From: a virus
IMG/VR virus record: IMGVR_UViG_3300032242_002521
Span: 1-31,851 of that record
DNA: 31,851 nt
Reading direction: 5' to 3' (one strand)
Under the pieces are notes generated by a model. That model had not been told where the DNA came from. It did no database searches and saw only the letters and a list, made by a program, of their open reading frames with translations. This document shows, one piece after another, positions 7,072 through 24,521 of this stretch (position 1 is the stretch's first letter; each line of letters starts with the position of its first letter). The position numbers were made by a program, and so were the translations under genes.

Positions 7072-7413
7072 TCACGAATTCATCAGTTTGGCAAATGTAT
7101 TTTGTATAAAATTATTTGAAGTGGTGGTGCGCTTGGCCATAATACCATACCATTGTTTTGGTATTAATTCGGAAATATATTCAAATGGATCGGTAAAGAT
7201 TGCTTCAAACTGGTCAACATCAACTAATTCACCATCTTTAGCTTCTTTGAATAGTATAACATGATAACTGTCTCCCATGGTAGACCCACCTAGTTTTTCT
7301 CCAGGGTTTTTGTATGTTGCAGCTTCTATTTGAACGGAATCTTTTTGCTCACCTGGGAGAAAAAAGATTGCATCGTGTTCATCTTTATTGAAGTCTTTTA
7401 AGAAGTCTAGCAT
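7072..7413 (-). CDS. Unknown phage protein
   Basis: A 113-residue acidic protein with alternating beta strands and loops (DAIFFLPGEQKDSVQIEAATY then LGGSTMGDSYHVILFKEAKDGE) and a helical C-terminus. No known motif. Start 7413 has AAGGA about 6 bases upstream and overlaps the GIY-YIG gene by 29 bases. Position between replication and nucleotide genes suggests early expression, which is inference only. Confidence 0.6.
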   Translation of the reverse strand: MLDFLKDFNKDEHDAIFFLPGEQKDSVQIEAATYKNPGEKLGGSTMGDSYHVILFKEAKDGELVDVDQFEAIFTDPFEYISELIPKQWYGIMAKRTTTSNNFIQNTFAKLMNS

Positions 7414-7819
7414 TATAGTCCTTGATATGTGATTTTCTAACTCGTACCATTATCCATGTATTGTAATAATCGTCTGTTTCCAGAGCACCACGGATAAATT
7501 GTTCTTTAGCTTCGAGATAACCACATTCGCCTTTTGTTCGGCAAAGATGCAAAATCTCTCTACGAAAGCACTCATGTCCTAATAATAACACATCTTTAGT
7601 TACTTCGGCACTACTTCCATAGTAAGTTTGCCAATCACTAGATACCTTAATTTTTTTCTTTTTACCTTTGACTTGTTTGGTTTTGGCAGAATAAAAAAAT
7701 TTCTTGCCTATGTATTTTTTACCATTCGTCAGATTAATTATCTGATACACGAACCCGTAATTATCACCAATCAAGTCTTCCGTAAAATCTTTATCTTGAT
7801 ACTTCCAGTTTATTCCCAT
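7385..7819 (-). CDS. GIY-YIG-type nuclease
   Basis: A 144-residue protein with an N-terminal GIY-YIG module: GFVYQI at residues 22-27 and KKYIGKK at 34-40, with the usual spacing. It has a Lys-rich segment and a conserved-looking LEAKEQF (candidate catalytic Glu). The YYGSS and GECGYLEAKEQF segments are typical of a single-domain family in T4-like phages. Members cut DNA; some are free-standing homing endonucleases, others may act in DNA processing. No intron or intein is associated. The ATG lies within the stop region of the zinc-ribbon gene (10-base overlap). Confidence 0.72.
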   Translation of the reverse strand: MGINWKYQDKDFTEDLIGDNYGFVYQIINLTNGKKYIGKKFFYSAKTKQVKGKKKKIKVSSDWQTYYGSSAEVTKDVLLLGHECFRREILHLCRTKGECGYLEAKEQFIRGALETDDYYNTWIMVRVRKSHIKDYNARLLKRLQ

Positions 7820-7995
7820 TCCTCATTGTCCAAATCATCTTCATCCTCTATATAGTCTTCCGATAATTCTTCAATCTGTTCTCCACAGAACGGACAAATT
7901 TCTGGTAAATCTTGAGATACTAATTCTTCCATATATGATATACTATAAGTCGATTCACAACTTAAGCATTCTCCTGATAATTGTTTTTGTGTCAT
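7810..7995 (-). CDS. Small zinc-ribbon protein
   Basis: Starts at 7995 (MTQKQLSGECLSCESTYS) with AAGG 7 bases upstream; a longer frame to 8055 lacks this and would overlap the upstream gene. Two CxxC knuckles, CLSC (residues 10-13) and CPFC (34-37), make a classical zinc ribbon, followed by an acidic tail (EEQIEELSEDYIEDEDD and beyond). Proteins of this size in T4-like phages often bind nucleic acid or regulate transcription; nothing here identifies the partner. Confidence 0.68.
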   Translation of the reverse strand: MTQKQLSGECLSCESTYSISYMEELVSQDLPEICPFCGEQIEELSEDYIEDEDDLDNEEWE

Positions 7996-8009
7996 TGTTA
8001 ACCTTATTT

Positions 8010-8642
8010 TTATTCTTTTTGATACATGACTGTATTTGTATCTCCTAAAGCCCACTTGGCATCAGTTTCAACCGACCATAATTTTGTTGCTACTCTAAAA
8101 TCGGGAAATTTCAATTGTGGTGGATTGCTACTTGGCTCAAAAAACAAAGTTCTATTATTTGGCTGAGCCGCAAATTGGCCATTATTACATTTAATAAAAT
8201 TAAAAGACTTGTGGTCTTCCGCATCTTCAGCATAAGTAATGTCTAATGTGTTATAGTCAGGACTTGCTGAATCTACTGTAAACATATATTGACCGTGAAT
8301 CATTTGTTTATTCTTGCTTAAGAAAGCACAAGATAAATTTTCTATCAAGGATTTCTTTAATACTGTAACATCATACGACATACAGTTCCAAATTTGCAAA
8401 TAATCTAATGGTAAAGGATCGCCTTCAATTTCTTTCCAACAATAACCATGCAAAGGTACTTTATCGTATAGAGCTCCATACTCTGGTAAATATGATTCAA
8501 TACGAAATGCTTGTCCTTTAATAGATTTTAAACTAACCCATTGGCAAGGTACAAGTTCACCTTGACCTTTTTCAAAATCATATAAAAACTCACGGCGAAT
8601 AAAACACTTAACTGGTGGTAAATTCGCAATCAAAAAACTCAT
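8010..8642 (-). CDS. Conserved phage protein, unknown function
   Basis: A 210-residue protein read from the ATG at 8642 (MSFLIANLPPVKCFIRREFL), which has AGGAG with a normal 6-base space; another ATG two codons upstream touches the Shine-Dalgarno and is less likely. It looks mostly beta and is rich in aromatic residues (GYCWKEIEGDPLPLDYLQIW). I recall a family with the same beginning (MSFLIANLP) in T4-like aquatic phages, without a function. It overlaps the SET-domain gene by 35 bases, so the two are probably co-translated. Confidence 0.7.
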   Translation of the reverse strand: MSFLIANLPPVKCFIRREFLYDFEKGQGELVPCQWVSLKSIKGQAFRIESYLPEYGALYDKVPLHGYCWKEIEGDPLPLDYLQIWNCMSYDVTVLKKSLIENLSCAFLSKNKQMIHGQYMFTVDSASPDYNTLDITYAEDAEDHKSFNFIKCNNGQFAAQPNNRTLFFEPSSNPPQLKFPDFRVATKLWSVETDAKWALGDTNTVMYQKE

Positions 8643-9000
8643 CGTCATCTCCTATTGTATCATAATCTACTATCAATTCTTCACCTATCATAATATCACG
8701 GTTTGCTATATGTATGTAATAATTAGGTGAATCAATATTTGGCCAATCACAATGATTCATCCAATTGGCGTTGTCGCAAGATTTAATCCAACCTTGACGA
8801 TTTTTATCGTAACAACAAAAATGCTTAATGTAGTCTTTTGTTGCTTCGCTATATAAACTTAAATTGGCTGAATAAAACCAGCCATCTAATAAATCATCAT
8901 GTTTCCAAATTACTGTGCCTTTTGGTATATCTTGTTCGGCAAACAGTCCTAGTCCTTCGATAGAACTTGGTTTTATTTTTGTTTTAACTAATAAAGGCAT
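8608..9000 (-). CDS. SET-domain protein (putative protein lysine methyltransferase)
   Basis: A 130-residue protein that is essentially one SET domain, read from the ATG at 9000 (MPLLVKTKIKPSS), 2 bases after the nrdB stop. Landmarks: EGLGLFAEQDIPKGTVI (residues 15-31, the GxG SAM-binding part), NANWMNHCDWPN (77-88, matching NHSCxPN) and GEELIVDYD (106-114, matching GEELTxDY, with the C-terminal Tyr113). SET domains transfer a methyl group from SAM to lysine in proteins. It lacks pre-SET or full post-SET cysteine clusters. The target is unknown: host or phage protein. A longer upstream reading exists but runs into nrdB. Confidence 0.85.
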   Translation of the reverse strand: MPLLVKTKIKPSSIEGLGLFAEQDIPKGTVIWKHDDLLDGWFYSANLSLYSEATKDYIKHFCCYDKNRQGWIKSCDNANWMNHCDWPNIDSPNYYIHIANRDIMIGEELIVDYDTIGDDDEFFDCEFTTS

Positions 9001-9001
9001 A

Positions 9002-9991
9002 TTAATGTGCCCACACATCACTCCAATCTCCAGACAAAGCGCCTTTTGCATAATCAGTAGCTCTATTCTCAAAGAAATTAGTATGTGTTGGTGCGTTAAT
9101 CATTTCTTCAACCCATGGTAATGGATTCTTTTTCACTTTGAATTGACCTTTTAGTCCTAAAGAAATCAATCTTCGGTCGGCAATATAACGAATATACTTT
9201 TTAACATCTTCAGCAGACAAATCTTCCATGGCGCCCATTTGGAAAGCCAAGTCGATAAACTTATCTTCTAATTCTACCATGCGTTCAGCAATAGTATATA
9301 ATCTGCCTTTTAATTCATCGTTCCAAATTTCACGATTTTCTTCAATGTAAGTTCTAAACAATTTAACCATGTTTTCGGTATGTTGTGTTTCATCAACGAT
9401 AGACCAAGTAACAATCTGTCCCATACCTTTCATTTTACCATGTCGTGGAAAATTAAGTAACATAATAAAAGAGCTAAACAACTGCATACCTTCGGTAAAT
9501 GCCGAAAATACAGCGATATGAGTTGCTGTGTTTTCTTTAGTAGTATTTTTTTCAGAAATGTCCATAACATAATCATGTTTCTCTTTCATCTGTGCATATT
9601 CCATAAACTCATTATAAGTTGTATCTGGAAGACCAAGAGTTTCAATCAAGTGTGAGTAAGCAGCAATATGTAAAGCTTCACGAGCAGCAAAACCTAATAA
9701 CATCATGCGTATTTCGGGTTGAGGAAAATAAGGCAAATAATTATTAACATAACCACCAGCAACGTCAATATCTCCTTGGGTGAAGAATCTAAAAATGTGG
9801 GTGAGAAATTGCTTTTCTTCTTTAGTGAGCTTTTTCTTCCAATCTTTAACATCTTCCAGCATTGGAACTTCGGTGTGTAACCAATGAGATTGCTCATGCT
9901 TAAGCCATGCATCATAAGCCCAAGCATAATTGAAAGGTTTAAAATATGTTCTTTCATCGGTCATTTTTGAATCTGTTATTTTCTTAATCAT
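9002..9991 (-). CDS. nrdB: Class Ia ribonucleotide reductase, small (beta) subunit
   Basis: A 329-residue ferritin-like protein read from the ATG at 9991 (MIKKITDSKMTDER), which has AAGGA 6 bases upstream; a longer frame to 10015 would run into nrdA. Iron ligands and radical site: an Asp in TQGDIDVA (about 74-76), Glu105 and His108 (REALH), the radical Tyr112 at the E. coli Tyr122 position, a Glu in FTEGMQLF, and ETQH for the last Glu/His pair. With NrdA it reduces ribonucleotides to deoxyribonucleotides for phage DNA synthesis. Its ATG follows the nrdA stop by 2 bases. Confidence 0.95.
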   Translation of the reverse strand: MIKKITDSKMTDERTYFKPFNYAWAYDAWLKHEQSHWLHTEVPMLEDVKDWKKKLTKEEKQFLTHIFRFFTQGDIDVAGGYVNNYLPYFPQPEIRMMLLGFAAREALHIAAYSHLIETLGLPDTTYNEFMEYAQMKEKHDYVMDISEKNTTKENTATHIAVFSAFTEGMQLFSSFIMLLNFPRHGKMKGMGQIVTWSIVDETQHTENMVKLFRTYIEENREIWNDELKGRLYTIAERMVELEDKFIDLAFQMGAMEDLSAEDVKKYIRYIADRRLISLGLKGQFKVKKNPLPWVEEMINAPTHTNFFENRATDYAKGALSGDWSDVWAH

Positions 9992-9993
9992 TC

Positions 9994-11778
9994 TTATCCT
10001 TCGCAAGCAATACAATCGTTACCTTGAGCAATTTGCGTCATATCCAACTCTTTGATAACGTCTCTTTCTATCTTTTTGGCAACCTTATCGGCTTTGCCAA
10101 TCTTTTCTGAACGGCAATAATATAAAGTTTTCAATCCTTTTTTCCATGCCATATAATGAATAGCATGAATATATTTGATGTGTGCATCTGGTCTGAAAAA
10201 TAGATTCAAACTTTGTGCTTGGTCAATATATGCTTGACGGTCAGCAGCAAGGTCGATAACCCATCTTTGGTCGATTTCCATAGAGGTTTTAAATACATCT
10301 CTTTCAGCGTCAGAAAGGATATCGAGATGCTGGCAAGAACCATCATTAGCAATAATACTAGACCAAATGTCGTTGTAGTCTTGTTCATCTTTTGCTTTCT
10401 CTTTAATAATTTTATCTAACCAACGATTTTTATTTAAGAAAGAACCTGAAAGAGTATCCTGCCGATAAGCGTTGGCACGGTAAGGTTCAATACTAGGAGA
10501 AGTATTCCCCATGATAATGGAAGAAGAAGCATTGGGAGCAATAGCCATAACATGACTAAACCTACGACCAGTACCGGCCGCATCAGGCGCCTCACCTCTT
10601 TCGGAACCAAGTTTGAGATTAGCTGCATCTAAACCCTCTTTAATAGATTTAAAAATTTTATTATTTGCCACTTTAGCCATGACGCCTTCGAAAGCAATAC
10701 CATTCTTTTGGAGATAAGCATGAAAACCAAGGGCACCAATACCAATGCTGCGCTCACGGCTCGCACTATACTTAGCCCGTGCAATAGCAGAAGGAGCATT
10801 ATCAATAAAATACTGCAAAACATTATCAAGCATTTCTGCAACATCTTTAAGAAAAAGGGGTTCATTCTTCCACTCATCATAAGTCTCCAAGTTCAAAGAA
10901 GATAAACAACATACTGCTGTTCTTTCTTCATTAGTGGGTAAAATAATTTCAGAACAAAGGTTTGATTGGTGAATCTTTAAACCTTTATCTTTAAGCCATT
11001 GTGGCATTTCACGATTGCTTGTATCAATAAAGTGAATATATGGTTCACCTGTATGCATACGCAATTCTAAAATTTGTTGCCAAAGGTGTCTTGCTGATAC
11101 CACTTCACGCAACTCACCTGAATGTGGATCTTTTAATTGCCAATCATCTTTAGCTTCAGGATCCAACATACAATTTTCCAGCAATTGCATAAAGTCATCT
11201 GTAATATTAATACCATGGTGTAAATTTAAACAGCGAACATTAGGATCGCCTGTTGGTTTACGCATTTCTAAAAATGGGATAATATCTGGATGACTGATAT
11301 CGAGATAAGCAGCATAACTGCCCCGGCGAGTACGACCTTGGCGATATGCCAAAGAACTCGCATCATAGATTTTGAGGTGAGGCATAACACCTGTAGATTT
11401 ATCGTCTGCTGAACGAATACCAAAACCGATGCCAACACCGCCACCAAGCATAGAAAGCCAATTAGTTTCTGATAGATTATCAACTAAACCTTCCGCAGTA
11501 TCTTCAATATAGTTAAGGAAACATGATATAGGCAAGCCACGCTTACTGCGACCAAAAGAAAGAATGGGAGTAGAATAACTGAGCCAATGCTTGCTACTGT
11601 ATTCGTATAGTCTTTGTGCATGTTCTGTATTACTTCCAAATGATTTTGATACAAATGCAAATCTGTGTTGCGGTGAGGTTTCATCCTCTTTCATGTATGA
11701 TTCTTGTAATCGTTTTATCCCTAGTTCGTCAAAAAGTTTATCTCGTTCTAAATCTATGTTAATTCCTAGATATTCCAT
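9994..11778 (-). CDS. nrdA: Class Ia ribonucleotide reductase, large (alpha) subunit
   Basis: A 594-residue protein read from the ATG at 11778 (MEYLGINIDLERDK) after AAGGTG; a GTG two codons earlier is less likely. Catalytic parts: Cys86 (ISCFLNY), Asn273-Cys275-Glu277 (NLCSE, the thiyl radical site), Cys290/291, a LYYCR tyrosine pair for radical transfer, and a C-terminal CxxC (589, 592) for re-reduction by thioredoxin or glutaredoxin. The N-terminal ATP-cone is missing: E. coli NrdA has 761 residues. Loss of that site would remove dATP feedback inhibition, which suits bulk dNTP supply in infection. It works with the adjacent nrdB. Confidence 0.95.
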   Translation of the reverse strand: MEYLGINIDLERDKLFDELGIKRLQESYMKEDETSPQHRFAFVSKSFGSNTEHAQRLYEYSSKHWLSYSTPILSFGRSKRGLPISCFLNYIEDTAEGLVDNLSETNWLSMLGGGVGIGFGIRSADDKSTGVMPHLKIYDASSLAYRQGRTRRGSYAAYLDISHPDIIPFLEMRKPTGDPNVRCLNLHHGINITDDFMQLLENCMLDPEAKDDWQLKDPHSGELREVVSARHLWQQILELRMHTGEPYIHFIDTSNREMPQWLKDKGLKIHQSNLCSEIILPTNEERTAVCCLSSLNLETYDEWKNEPLFLKDVAEMLDNVLQYFIDNAPSAIARAKYSASRERSIGIGALGFHAYLQKNGIAFEGVMAKVANNKIFKSIKEGLDAANLKLGSERGEAPDAAGTGRRFSHVMAIAPNASSSIIMGNTSPSIEPYRANAYRQDTLSGSFLNKNRWLDKIIKEKAKDEQDYNDIWSSIIANDGSCQHLDILSDAERDVFKTSMEIDQRWVIDLAADRQAYIDQAQSLNLFFRPDAHIKYIHAIHYMAWKKGLKTLYYCRSEKIGKADKVAKKIERDVIKELDMTQIAQGNDCIACEG

Positions 11779-11828
11779 GTTCACCTTGTTATTGTTATTG
11801 TTGATTTAAAAAATTATAATATAAAATG

Positions 11829-22616: not shown

Positions 22617-24521
22617 TTAAATTGCTCCCTTTTTATTTTTCTTTTTAATTACACTTGTTGCACGAATTTTCATATCGTATGGTGTATCCATGGGTTCTTT
22701 ATTACCAGCACCACCTGTTGTACCACTAACTCCCATATCAAAAGCTCCCGGATCATCAATAGCTTCTTTTTTAATTGATTTTCTAAACTTTTTAAAGTCT
22801 TTTTCTTTATCCGCATGAGAATCAAAATTATAATCACTACTTAAAGGATTTGGTGACCCTCCTGATGGCATCGCTGTCGTATCAGGATTTGCATTACTAT
22901 AACCTTGACTCTCGCTATATGTCTGATTACCCAACCCAGCACCACCAGTTAATCCTGAACCGTTGGTACGGGTATTCCATTCAGAAGCAAATCCGTCTGC
23001 TTTAGAGGTGCGACCATCGCTTACTGAAGTGTATTTTGGTTTTTTTACTTTTTCTTTGTCTTTGCTGAAGTTGCTTTCTTTTTTGTCGGCGTAGACTTTG
23101 AGCGTTGGGCTTTTGGCTTCTGCCGTGTAGGCGGCGTGCCAAGCACCACCGGTGGTTGATTTCCCGTTGGGGTTTTTTCTTGGGTGCGTGTTGCCTTTGA
23201 TTTCGTCTCCACTATAGGTGGCTGAGTTGTCTGGAGTGCTGTCTCCTGGACTTCTGGTTGTGATTCCTGAGTTTTTGGTCCTGTGAAGAAACCGATTATA
23301 GCTTTTAACATTTTTATCTTCCTTAAATAATGAATTAATATTTTTGTTGTTTCGATTCAACCAATCTTCCGAGGTTTCATTTAATACTTTAACATCCAAG
23401 AAATTGTTAGTAAATTCATATACTTGGTGTATATCTTCTACTTTTTCTGAGATGCTACCTGTATTATCAAAAACAACGAAATTTTTAAAGGCCTCGTTGA
23501 AATATTTAGTATTTCTCTGAGATTTCGACCATTTATCTTGACGTACTGATTCTACCATCATTCTAGATAATAGAGAGTTTCTTTCTTTACTCACTTCATC
23601 TGTGGTATTCACAAAAATCATCATGGTCTTATAACCAAGCTCTTCTAATTCTTCTTTAATATAAGCAATTCTATCTTTATCGTCAGCTGGACCATTAATG
23701 ATTAATGGACCACGATTCCGAATGGCTTCTCTTCGAAAATCACTAGTTTTTTCTGATAGTTTTTGTTTATCGCCCAAGTAATCTTGTGCTTGAATAAAAT
23801 TCAATTCAACGATACGACTTTCAGCAATAGCTTCACGAATAATAACATCTTTACCTGAACCAGGACCACCAGTCACAAATATTGCATGAAACATTCCACG
23901 TTCAGCATTTTCGTGTAAACCCATACCTTTACGAGTATCATGCATAAGTTCTTTTGCGTGTTTATCGGACACATGGTGTGGAACACCTTTACGAAATTCT
24001 TTAAAATCACCAGTAGAAGCGTGATGCCTCATTTTTGTTCCGGATACACCCTCATCACCCTCAGCATCAGGATCACGATGACCTGCGGAATGAACATGAA
24101 TCTTTTTAAAGTTATATAATGCACCTTTATGTGTACCATTATATTTGTGTAATTTTTCTTTCATTTCTTTAACACGGTCAGAACCAACGACCATATGCAA
24201 ATGAGTTACACCATTTTTATGTAAATGTTCTGCATGGTTTAAAAATGTAGGATGTTCTTTTGAAGATTTCTCAAAATGCGTACCCGGAGAATATCTTTTT
24301 AAATGTTTTACTTTTTGTTCACCACTCAAAGGATTCTTTTTAGCATCTTGAGAGTGAGATACAACAACAGAATGTGTTGCGTTATGTTTATGAGCAACTT
24401 CTTTAACTTTATCAATTAATTTCAAATGACCTGTGGTGGGCGGATTCATCCGACCAAATGTCATCACATGGTGTTTACCGGAAGATTCTTCCTCTTTAAT
24501 TACTTCTAAAAAAGACTTCAT
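22617..24521 (-). CDS. Adenylyl/cytidylyltransferase plus P-loop fusion protein with CTS-like N-terminus
   Basis: A 634-residue protein. Residues 1-10 (MKSFLEVIKE) resemble the T4 capsid-targeting leader. Residues 18-200 form a nucleotidyltransferase domain: GRMNPPTTGH (23-32, the GxxxPxxxGH motif), VVVSHS, VVGSD (111-115), and GVSGTKMR (158-165, the SxTxxR-like motif). This resembles NMN adenylyltransferase/NadR. Residues 210-380 form a P-loop ATPase domain: Walker A GGPGSGKD (218-225) then LIINGPADD. The C-terminus is low-complexity and ends KKKNKKG. In T4-like cyanophages related proteins are annotated as cytitidyltransferase. Domain 1 contains about 13% histidine. Substrate is not certain: NMN, a nucleotide, or a polynucleotide. 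Confidence 0.78.
   Translation of the reverse strand: MKSFLEVIKEEESSGKHHVMTFGRMNPPTTGHLKLIDKVKEVAHKHNATHSVVVSHSQDAKKNPLSGEQKVKHLKRYSPGTHFEKSSKEHPTFLNHAEHLHKNGVTHLHMVVGSDRVKEMKEKLHKYNGTHKGALYNFKKIHVHSAGHRDPDAEGDEGVSGTKMRHHASTGDFKEFRKGVPHHVSDKHAKELMHDTRKGMGLHENAERGMFHAIFVTGGPGSGKDVIIREAIAESRIVELNFIQAQDYLGDKQKLSEKTSDFRREAIRNRGPLIINGPADDKDRIAYIKEELEELGYKTMMIFVNTTDEVSKERNSLLSRMMVESVRQDKWSKSQRNTKYFNEAFKNFVVFDNTGSISEKVEDIHQVYEFTNNFLDVKVLNETSEDWLNRNNKNINSLFKEDKNVKSYNRFLHRTKNSGITTRSPGDSTPDNSATYSGDEIKGNTHPRKNPNGKSTTGGAWHAAYTAEAKSPTLKVYADKKESNFSKDKEKVKKPKYTSVSDGRTSKADGFASEWNTRTNGSGLTGGAGLGNQTYSESQGYSNANPDTTAMPSGGSPNPLSSDYNFDSHADKEKDFKKFRKSIKKEAIDDPGAFDMGVSGTTGGAGNKEPMDTPYDMKIRATSVIKKKNKKGAI
23045..23311 (-). 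CDS. Nested out-of-frame ORF, possible overlapping gene
   Basis: An 88-codon frame fully inside the 22617-24521 gene, starting MLKAIIGFFTGPKTQESQPE and ending in a basic tail (STPTKKKATSAKTKKK). AAGGA lies 8 bases upstream of its ATG at 23311. Over 23101-23280 I count 96 G or C of 180 (53%), well above the surrounding AT-rich sequence, as expected where two frames are constrained. The product has a short hydrophobic start, a Pro/Thr/Gln-rich middle and a basic end, like small phage proteins of MLKxIxxFF type. It may still be a by-product of the host gene's low-complexity sequence. Confidence 0.38.
   Translation of the reverse strand: MLKAIIGFFTGPKTQESQPEVQETALQTTQPPIVETKSKATRTQEKTPTGNQPPVVLGTPPTRQKPKAQRSKSTPTKKKATSAKTKKK

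Follow-up and report, generated by a model that had tools for sequence, protein, structure and literature searches.

SET enzymes are best known for the methylation of histones. A minimal viral member of the family, lacking pre- and post-SET parts, is vSET (A612L; 1n3j, 3kma) of chlorella virus PBCV-1, a virus of a eukaryotic alga; its substrate is a histone, with methylation at Lys27 of H3 (Manzur et al. 2003, cited in PMC1282579). The SET methyltransferases encoded by bacteria, among them LegAS4/RomA of Legionella and NUE of Chlamydia, have been reviewed (PMC3980110); these two are secreted into eukaryotic cells and have histone targets. Free-standing SET proteins (PF00856) of approximately 120-145 aa are encoded by bacteria and archaea, and UniProt entries named 'SET domain containing protein' from uncultured Caudovirales (A0A6J5L8Y2, A0A6J5P3I3 and A0A6J5PTS6) are known by annotation alone. 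Phage SET proteins had been described in the original prediction as poorly studied, and in agreement with this statement no papers on them were found in the open-access literature.

The DNA analysed here (the window), a viral contig from IMG/VR that is 31,851 bases long, encodes a 130-residue SET protein. This protein shares its minimal viral form with vSET, but a bacterial host offers no known histone of the kind that vSET methylates. It has the length and motif order of the free-standing bacterial and archaeal proteins, which are cellular whereas the window protein belongs to a phage. LegAS4/RomA and NUE are likewise prokaryote-encoded SET methyltransferases but differ in their secretion into eukaryotic cells and their action on histones, and LegAS4 is much larger. 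The predicted fold is shared with the uncultured Caudovirales entries (Foldseek E values from 8e-7 to 6e-5). The kind of protein is therefore already known, since both bacteria and archaea have free-standing SET proteins and databases name some from phages. The best cellular relatives, mainly from Patescibacteria, small archaea (e.g. Pacearchaeota), Parachlamydiaceae and Bdellovibrionota, were 34-41% identical to the window protein over nearly its full length.

The SET gene and its surroundings

Besides the SET gene and the ribonucleotide reductase genes nrdA and nrdB, the window encodes a T4-type primase and exonuclease, a SegE-like GIY-YIG nuclease and an endolysin. Together these genes indicate a T4-like phage, confirming the phage origin that had been claimed from the sequence. 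Judging by the sample series of its sister contigs, the virus is presumably of freshwater origin. The features of the locus were as follows.

9994..11784, minus strand: nrdA, ribonucleotide reductase large subunit (Pfam Ribonuc_red_lgC, 2e-107)
9002..9991, minus strand: nrdB, ribonucleotide reductase small subunit (Pfam Ribonuc_red_sm, 3.7e-75)
8608..9000, minus strand: SET gene, complete, 130 aa; free-standing minimal SET-domain protein and predicted protein-lysine methyltransferase (Pfam, profile and AF2 model)
8649..8653, minus strand: AGGAG, putative ribosome-binding site of gene X, 6 nt ahead of the X ATG at 8642 and within the final SET codons (located by eye)
8010..8642, minus strand: gene X, 210 aa, phrog_3704 (PHROG, 1e-81), the constant neighbour of SET; its ATG lies 35 nt within the SET gene

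Translation of the minus strand from 9000 to 8608 gave MPLLVKTK...WMNHCDWPN...GEELIVDYD...EFTTS followed by a stop codon, a product of 130 aa; a plus-strand reading of 8608-9000 was rejected due to stop codons. The SET gene had been reported to follow nrdB by 2 bases. The nrdB gene, preceded by nrdA, does lie upstream, but its stop codon occupies 9004-9002 and the SET ATG 9000-8998, so that a single base (9001) separates them. At the other end of the gene, the last 35 nt overlap the start of gene X. A 5-bp hairpin (GGGCA-TGCCT; 8995-9012, minus strand) was seen over the SET start codon, and no good ribosome-binding site was present upstream of it; the hairpin and the poor upstream site would fit translation that is coupled to that of nrdB.

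The original prediction had suggested early action from expression with nucleotide metabolism. The T4 late promoter TATAAATA was found twice in the window, which is below chance expectation, and never near SET, and sigma-70-like sites were only modestly above shuffled sequence. Given these counts, the timing of expression is not readable from promoters.

Three other minus-strand genes of the window were recorded. The product of 7385-7819 matched Pfam SegE GIY-YIG (8.6e-39), yet it falls in PHROG 447, which is named 'NAD synthetase', a name that T4-GC 213 likewise carries in P-SSM7; judged from the Pfam match, this name may be wrong. A small zinc-ribbon protein, weakly similar to Lar restriction-alleviation proteins (phrog_6422, 1.4e-5), is encoded at 7810-8055, and a 634-aa protein with a cytidyltransferase-like N-terminal part (phrog_3041, 7e-66), adjoined by other large proteins without assigned roles, at 22617-24521.

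Fold and active site of the SET protein

The 130-aa protein matched the Pfam SET profile (PF00856) over positions 1-104 of 105 with an E value of 2.5e-10; its score of 41.1 bits is well above the cut-off, which is 22.4 bits. When a profile built from 33 phage SET proteins was compared with the PDB, it matched the MLL3 SET domain (7e-17), vSET (9e-12) and LegAS4 (5czy; 6e-11). An AF2 model (pLDDT 81.6, pTM 0.68) was used for structural searches, and SET enzymes were found throughout the matches listed by both Foldseek (E values to 1e-6) and VIA-align (Z up to 12.0 over 77 residues, rmsd 2.0; Z 10.2 over 69 residues for vSET). The Foldseek TM scores were low, at about 0.5; the probable reason is the low confidence with which the insert between the motifs was modelled. 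No usable name for the protein was obtained from PHROGs or NCBIfam, and no defence system model in PADLOC matched at SET.

In SET proteins the GxG of motif I binds SAM, and Ser is the customary residue after the Asn-His pair of motif III. The corresponding segments of the window protein, all encoded on the minus strand, were as follows.

8938..8961, minus strand: motif I region IEGLGLFA, residues 14-21; G16 and G18 invariant in close relatives
8737..8757, minus strand: motif III, N82-H83-C-D-W-P-N88; N82, H83 and N88 invariant in close relatives
8659..8685, minus strand: motif IV GEELIVDYD, residues 106-114, with the predicted catalytic Tyr113, which is conserved

The Asn and His of the equivalent motif in SET7/9 contact SAM (PMC1282579). 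G16, G18, N82, H83 and Y113 were invariant in an alignment of ten phage relatives; among the 33 phage SET proteins the first four were nearly invariant and Y113 was present in at least 90%. The minimal SET protein of the original prediction, recognised there by NHCDWPN and GEELIVDYD, was thus upheld by the Pfam match, the intact SAM and catalytic motifs and the fold. Substitution of Tyr113 or of the NHC residues in close relatives had been named as a result that would speak against it; Tyr113 and the Asn82-His83 pair did not vary, and C84 is peculiar to the window copy, with Ser in every close relative. As Ser is the usual SET residue, this difference is no argument against activity. In L001, one of the sister contigs, P87 is replaced by Ala.

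A search for relatives, as had been proposed, identified SET proteins of 130 aa in 13 other IMG/VR contigs (62-83% identity), where nrd genes adjoined SET wherever the flanking sequence covered them. Pairwise dN/dS values were about 0.12-0.24 over the full gene and similar when the X overlap was removed; the gene is under purifying selection. The equal length in 13 contigs, the dN/dS values and the SET fold recovered in the structural search place the match far beyond chance. The low dN/dS together with the invariant SAM and catalytic residues indicates that the gene is kept for its protein, which looks catalytically competent. From the sequence and the model, the window protein is very probably an active SET protein-lysine methyltransferase. 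Its acidic tail, IGDDDE, is conserved but was not read as functional, since the DNA that encodes it holds the ribosome-binding site and the 5' end of X.

SET adjoins gene X in four phage groups

The SET gene was found next to X in four phage groups with three different surroundings. The first group comprises the window, L001 and 12 sister contigs. L001 has the gene order of the window, nrdA-nrdB-SET-X, while the remaining sister contigs with informative flanks have nrdA-SET-X-(other genes)-nrdB. The second, L122, has nrdA-SET-X-nrdB, and its SET protein is about 32% identical to that of the window. In the third, Synechococcus phage SynMITS9220M01, the order is SET-X-gene 25-gene 6 (baseplate) and SET ends 4 bases inside X; this arrangement likewise occurs in its IMG/VR kin L033 and L040-L042. 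The fourth, L026, has the reversed order dUTPase-X-SET-dCMP deaminase. With about 250 genes per phage, the probability that one given pair is adjacent by chance would be near 1%, a figure that is a rough estimate and not a survey. The position in an nrd operon that had been assigned to SET therefore needs to be qualified. SET does lie within the nrd cluster of a T4-like phage, but the conserved link is to X and not to nrd; the place after nrdB is found in two contigs, and elsewhere SET follows nrdA, stands by gene 25 or lies between X and dCMP deaminase.

In SynMITS9220M01 the SET frame (L015 5977-6357, plus strand; about 51,724-52,086) was for the most part overlooked in the annotation, where only the final 64 codons appear, under the name of a hypothetical protein.

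X was much commoner than SET, with 114 phage records carrying X versus two records of the window SET subfamily in the phage collection. SET was missing from the flanks of 78 of 79 further X loci, L122 being the only one with it, and no SET gene was found anywhere in the X-bearing genomes of HTVC008M, Mosig and S-TIM5. In a quick tree the X-adjacent SET proteins were scattered (4 changes); a single SET-X clade was not rejected (AU p 0.43). Several independent SET-X pairings were consequently dropped as an established result, since one ancient pair may have been carried along.

Identity of gene X

The 114 phage records give X the names PurM, ferredoxin or transcriptional regulator, and the copy in P-HM1 has been given as purM (PMC3037559). 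X corresponds to T4-GC 171. Pfam searches with the window X and its relatives gave no credible match and no AIRS domain (PF00586), and an AIRS domain was absent from the whole genomes of five phages that carry X (S-SM1, P-SSM4, S-TIM5, HTVC008M and SynMITS9220M01). ACG-2014e does have a genuine AIRS domain, but at another place than X. X as PurM (AIR synthetase) was rejected on these grounds and, as judged from the sequences, the PurM label is wrong for the family; the database names PurM and ferredoxin are unsupported or wrong. Two sequence matches of X in the PDB, to a spider toxin (E 0.009) and to one other entry (0.43), were chance-like and were also rejected.

In the AlphaFold model (pLDDT 82, pTM 0.79), X is a pair of small beta-barrels. 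Foldseek placed Tudor domains (SETDB1, 53BP1 and FXR2) first, but these matches were weak (best E 0.03, TM 0.2, probability up to 0.97). In VIA, 50-60 residues of each barrel were aligned with Z no higher than 4.3, and KOW barrels and beta-propellers were listed as well. Sequence profile searches with X detected no Tudor domain, and profile comparison detected no internal repeat between the barrels. A methyl-lysine reader of the Tudor type would need an aromatic cage for the mark, and X does have conserved aromatic residues (W35, F46, Y55 and Y59) that might contribute to one. The modelled fold thus weakly resembles Tudor and KOW folds, a lead and not an assignment. When residues peculiar to SET-bearing phages were sought in X, only a weak E54 was found, with no lysine and no aromatic residue.

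Other phage SET proteins

A second phage SET subfamily, phrog_28741, has members of about 100 aa, is named 'unknown function' and matched Pfam SET with E values of 5e-10 to 2e-11. None of the following members is annotated as SET.

L224 3001-3300: P-SSM7 (ADO98903.1)
L225 2995-3294: P-RSM6 (AGH56934.1)
L226 2986-3294: Pelagibacter phage Kolga (gp27)

Like the window protein these are small phage SET proteins, and in P-SSM7 the gene also lies shortly downstream of nrdA-nrdB, with one small hypothetical gene between nrdB and SET; in P-RSM6 it is directly ahead of gene 25. They differ from the window protein in having no long insert between the motifs, and X was absent from all three genomes.

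Further phage SET subfamilies have varied surroundings; in L057, for example, thyX is 1 kb from SET. The Asn-His pair has been lost in distant SET-like proteins of four loci, which may possibly be inactive paralogues, judging by this loss.

L064 1534-2004: SET-like protein without Asn-His
L052 248-718: SET-like protein without Asn-His
L043 3498-3968 and 3971-4402: two such proteins in tandem
L059 3971-4402: SET-like protein without Asn-His

Discussion

The reading that we tentatively prefer, at somewhat less than an even chance, is that an active SET lysine methyltransferase is co-translated with nrdB and X and has X, or a complex that contains X, as its substrate. Its frame would be read on the phage mRNA between those of nrdB and X, with translation coupled to both neighbours, and the enzyme would transfer methyl groups from SAM to lysine side chains in proteins. 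It would work with X, such that X, or a protein or complex bound by X, would be either the substrate or the site where the mark is used. The partnership is supported by the repeated adjacency of SET and X although the wider surroundings differ. Against it, X often occurs where there is no SET, and P-SSM7, P-RSM6 and Kolga conversely have SET without X; X has no lysine or aromatic residue that is restricted to SET-bearing phages, and the tree allows one ancient pair.

The same three genomes favour a different explanation, in essence that of the original prediction. Here the active enzyme would methylate a host protein, for example a component of the nucleoid, the ribosome or RNA polymerase, and would do so independently of X, whose neighbourhood would be a tolerant site of insertion. 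SET in genomes without X is evidently able to function without it, and most other phage SET subfamilies have different neighbours. However, no particular host protein is indicated, and the adjacency in four groups, one of them reversed, is left unexplained; we regard this explanation as the main alternative, though one that is rather unlikely to be correct. The nrd genes themselves suggest another target, ribonucleotide reductase or a different enzyme of nucleotide metabolism, methylation of which would tune dNTP supply. These genes are neighbours of SET in L122 and the window group, and in P-SSM7 they are close to a SET gene of the other subfamily; there are further genes of this type in L026 (dUTPase and dCMP deaminase) and near SET in L057. 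In contrast, many phage SET loci have no nucleotide-metabolism gene in the flanks examined, SET stands by baseplate genes in SynMITS9220M01 and P-RSM6, and nrd clusters of related phages contain X without SET, which makes such a target improbable.

It is equally doubtful that the SET fold was kept while its chemistry was lost, leaving a binding protein or decoy. The distant SET-like proteins without Asn-His show that the pair can disappear, and C84 and the nearby W86 are unusual in the window copy, but every SAM and catalytic position is kept in the window and its group, and the gene is under purifying selection. The modelled barrels of X raise one further idea. Tudor domains are readers of methyl-lysine in eukaryotes, and for this reason SET was considered as the writer and X as a Tudor-like reader of a lysine-methylation pair that would mark a host or phage protein in some T4-like phages. 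We think this very unlikely. If it were true, host-made marks would be what X reads where it occurs alone, in more than 100 records of cyanophages and pelagiphages.

Returning to the preferred reading, lysine methylation of proteins during phage infection has hardly been studied, and a phage SET protein that is under selection and has a recurring partner provides a concrete enzyme with few candidate substrates. X itself is present in more than 100 sequenced records of cyanophages and pelagiphages, and the rejection of its PurM name corrects an 'auxiliary metabolic gene' label in phage genomics.
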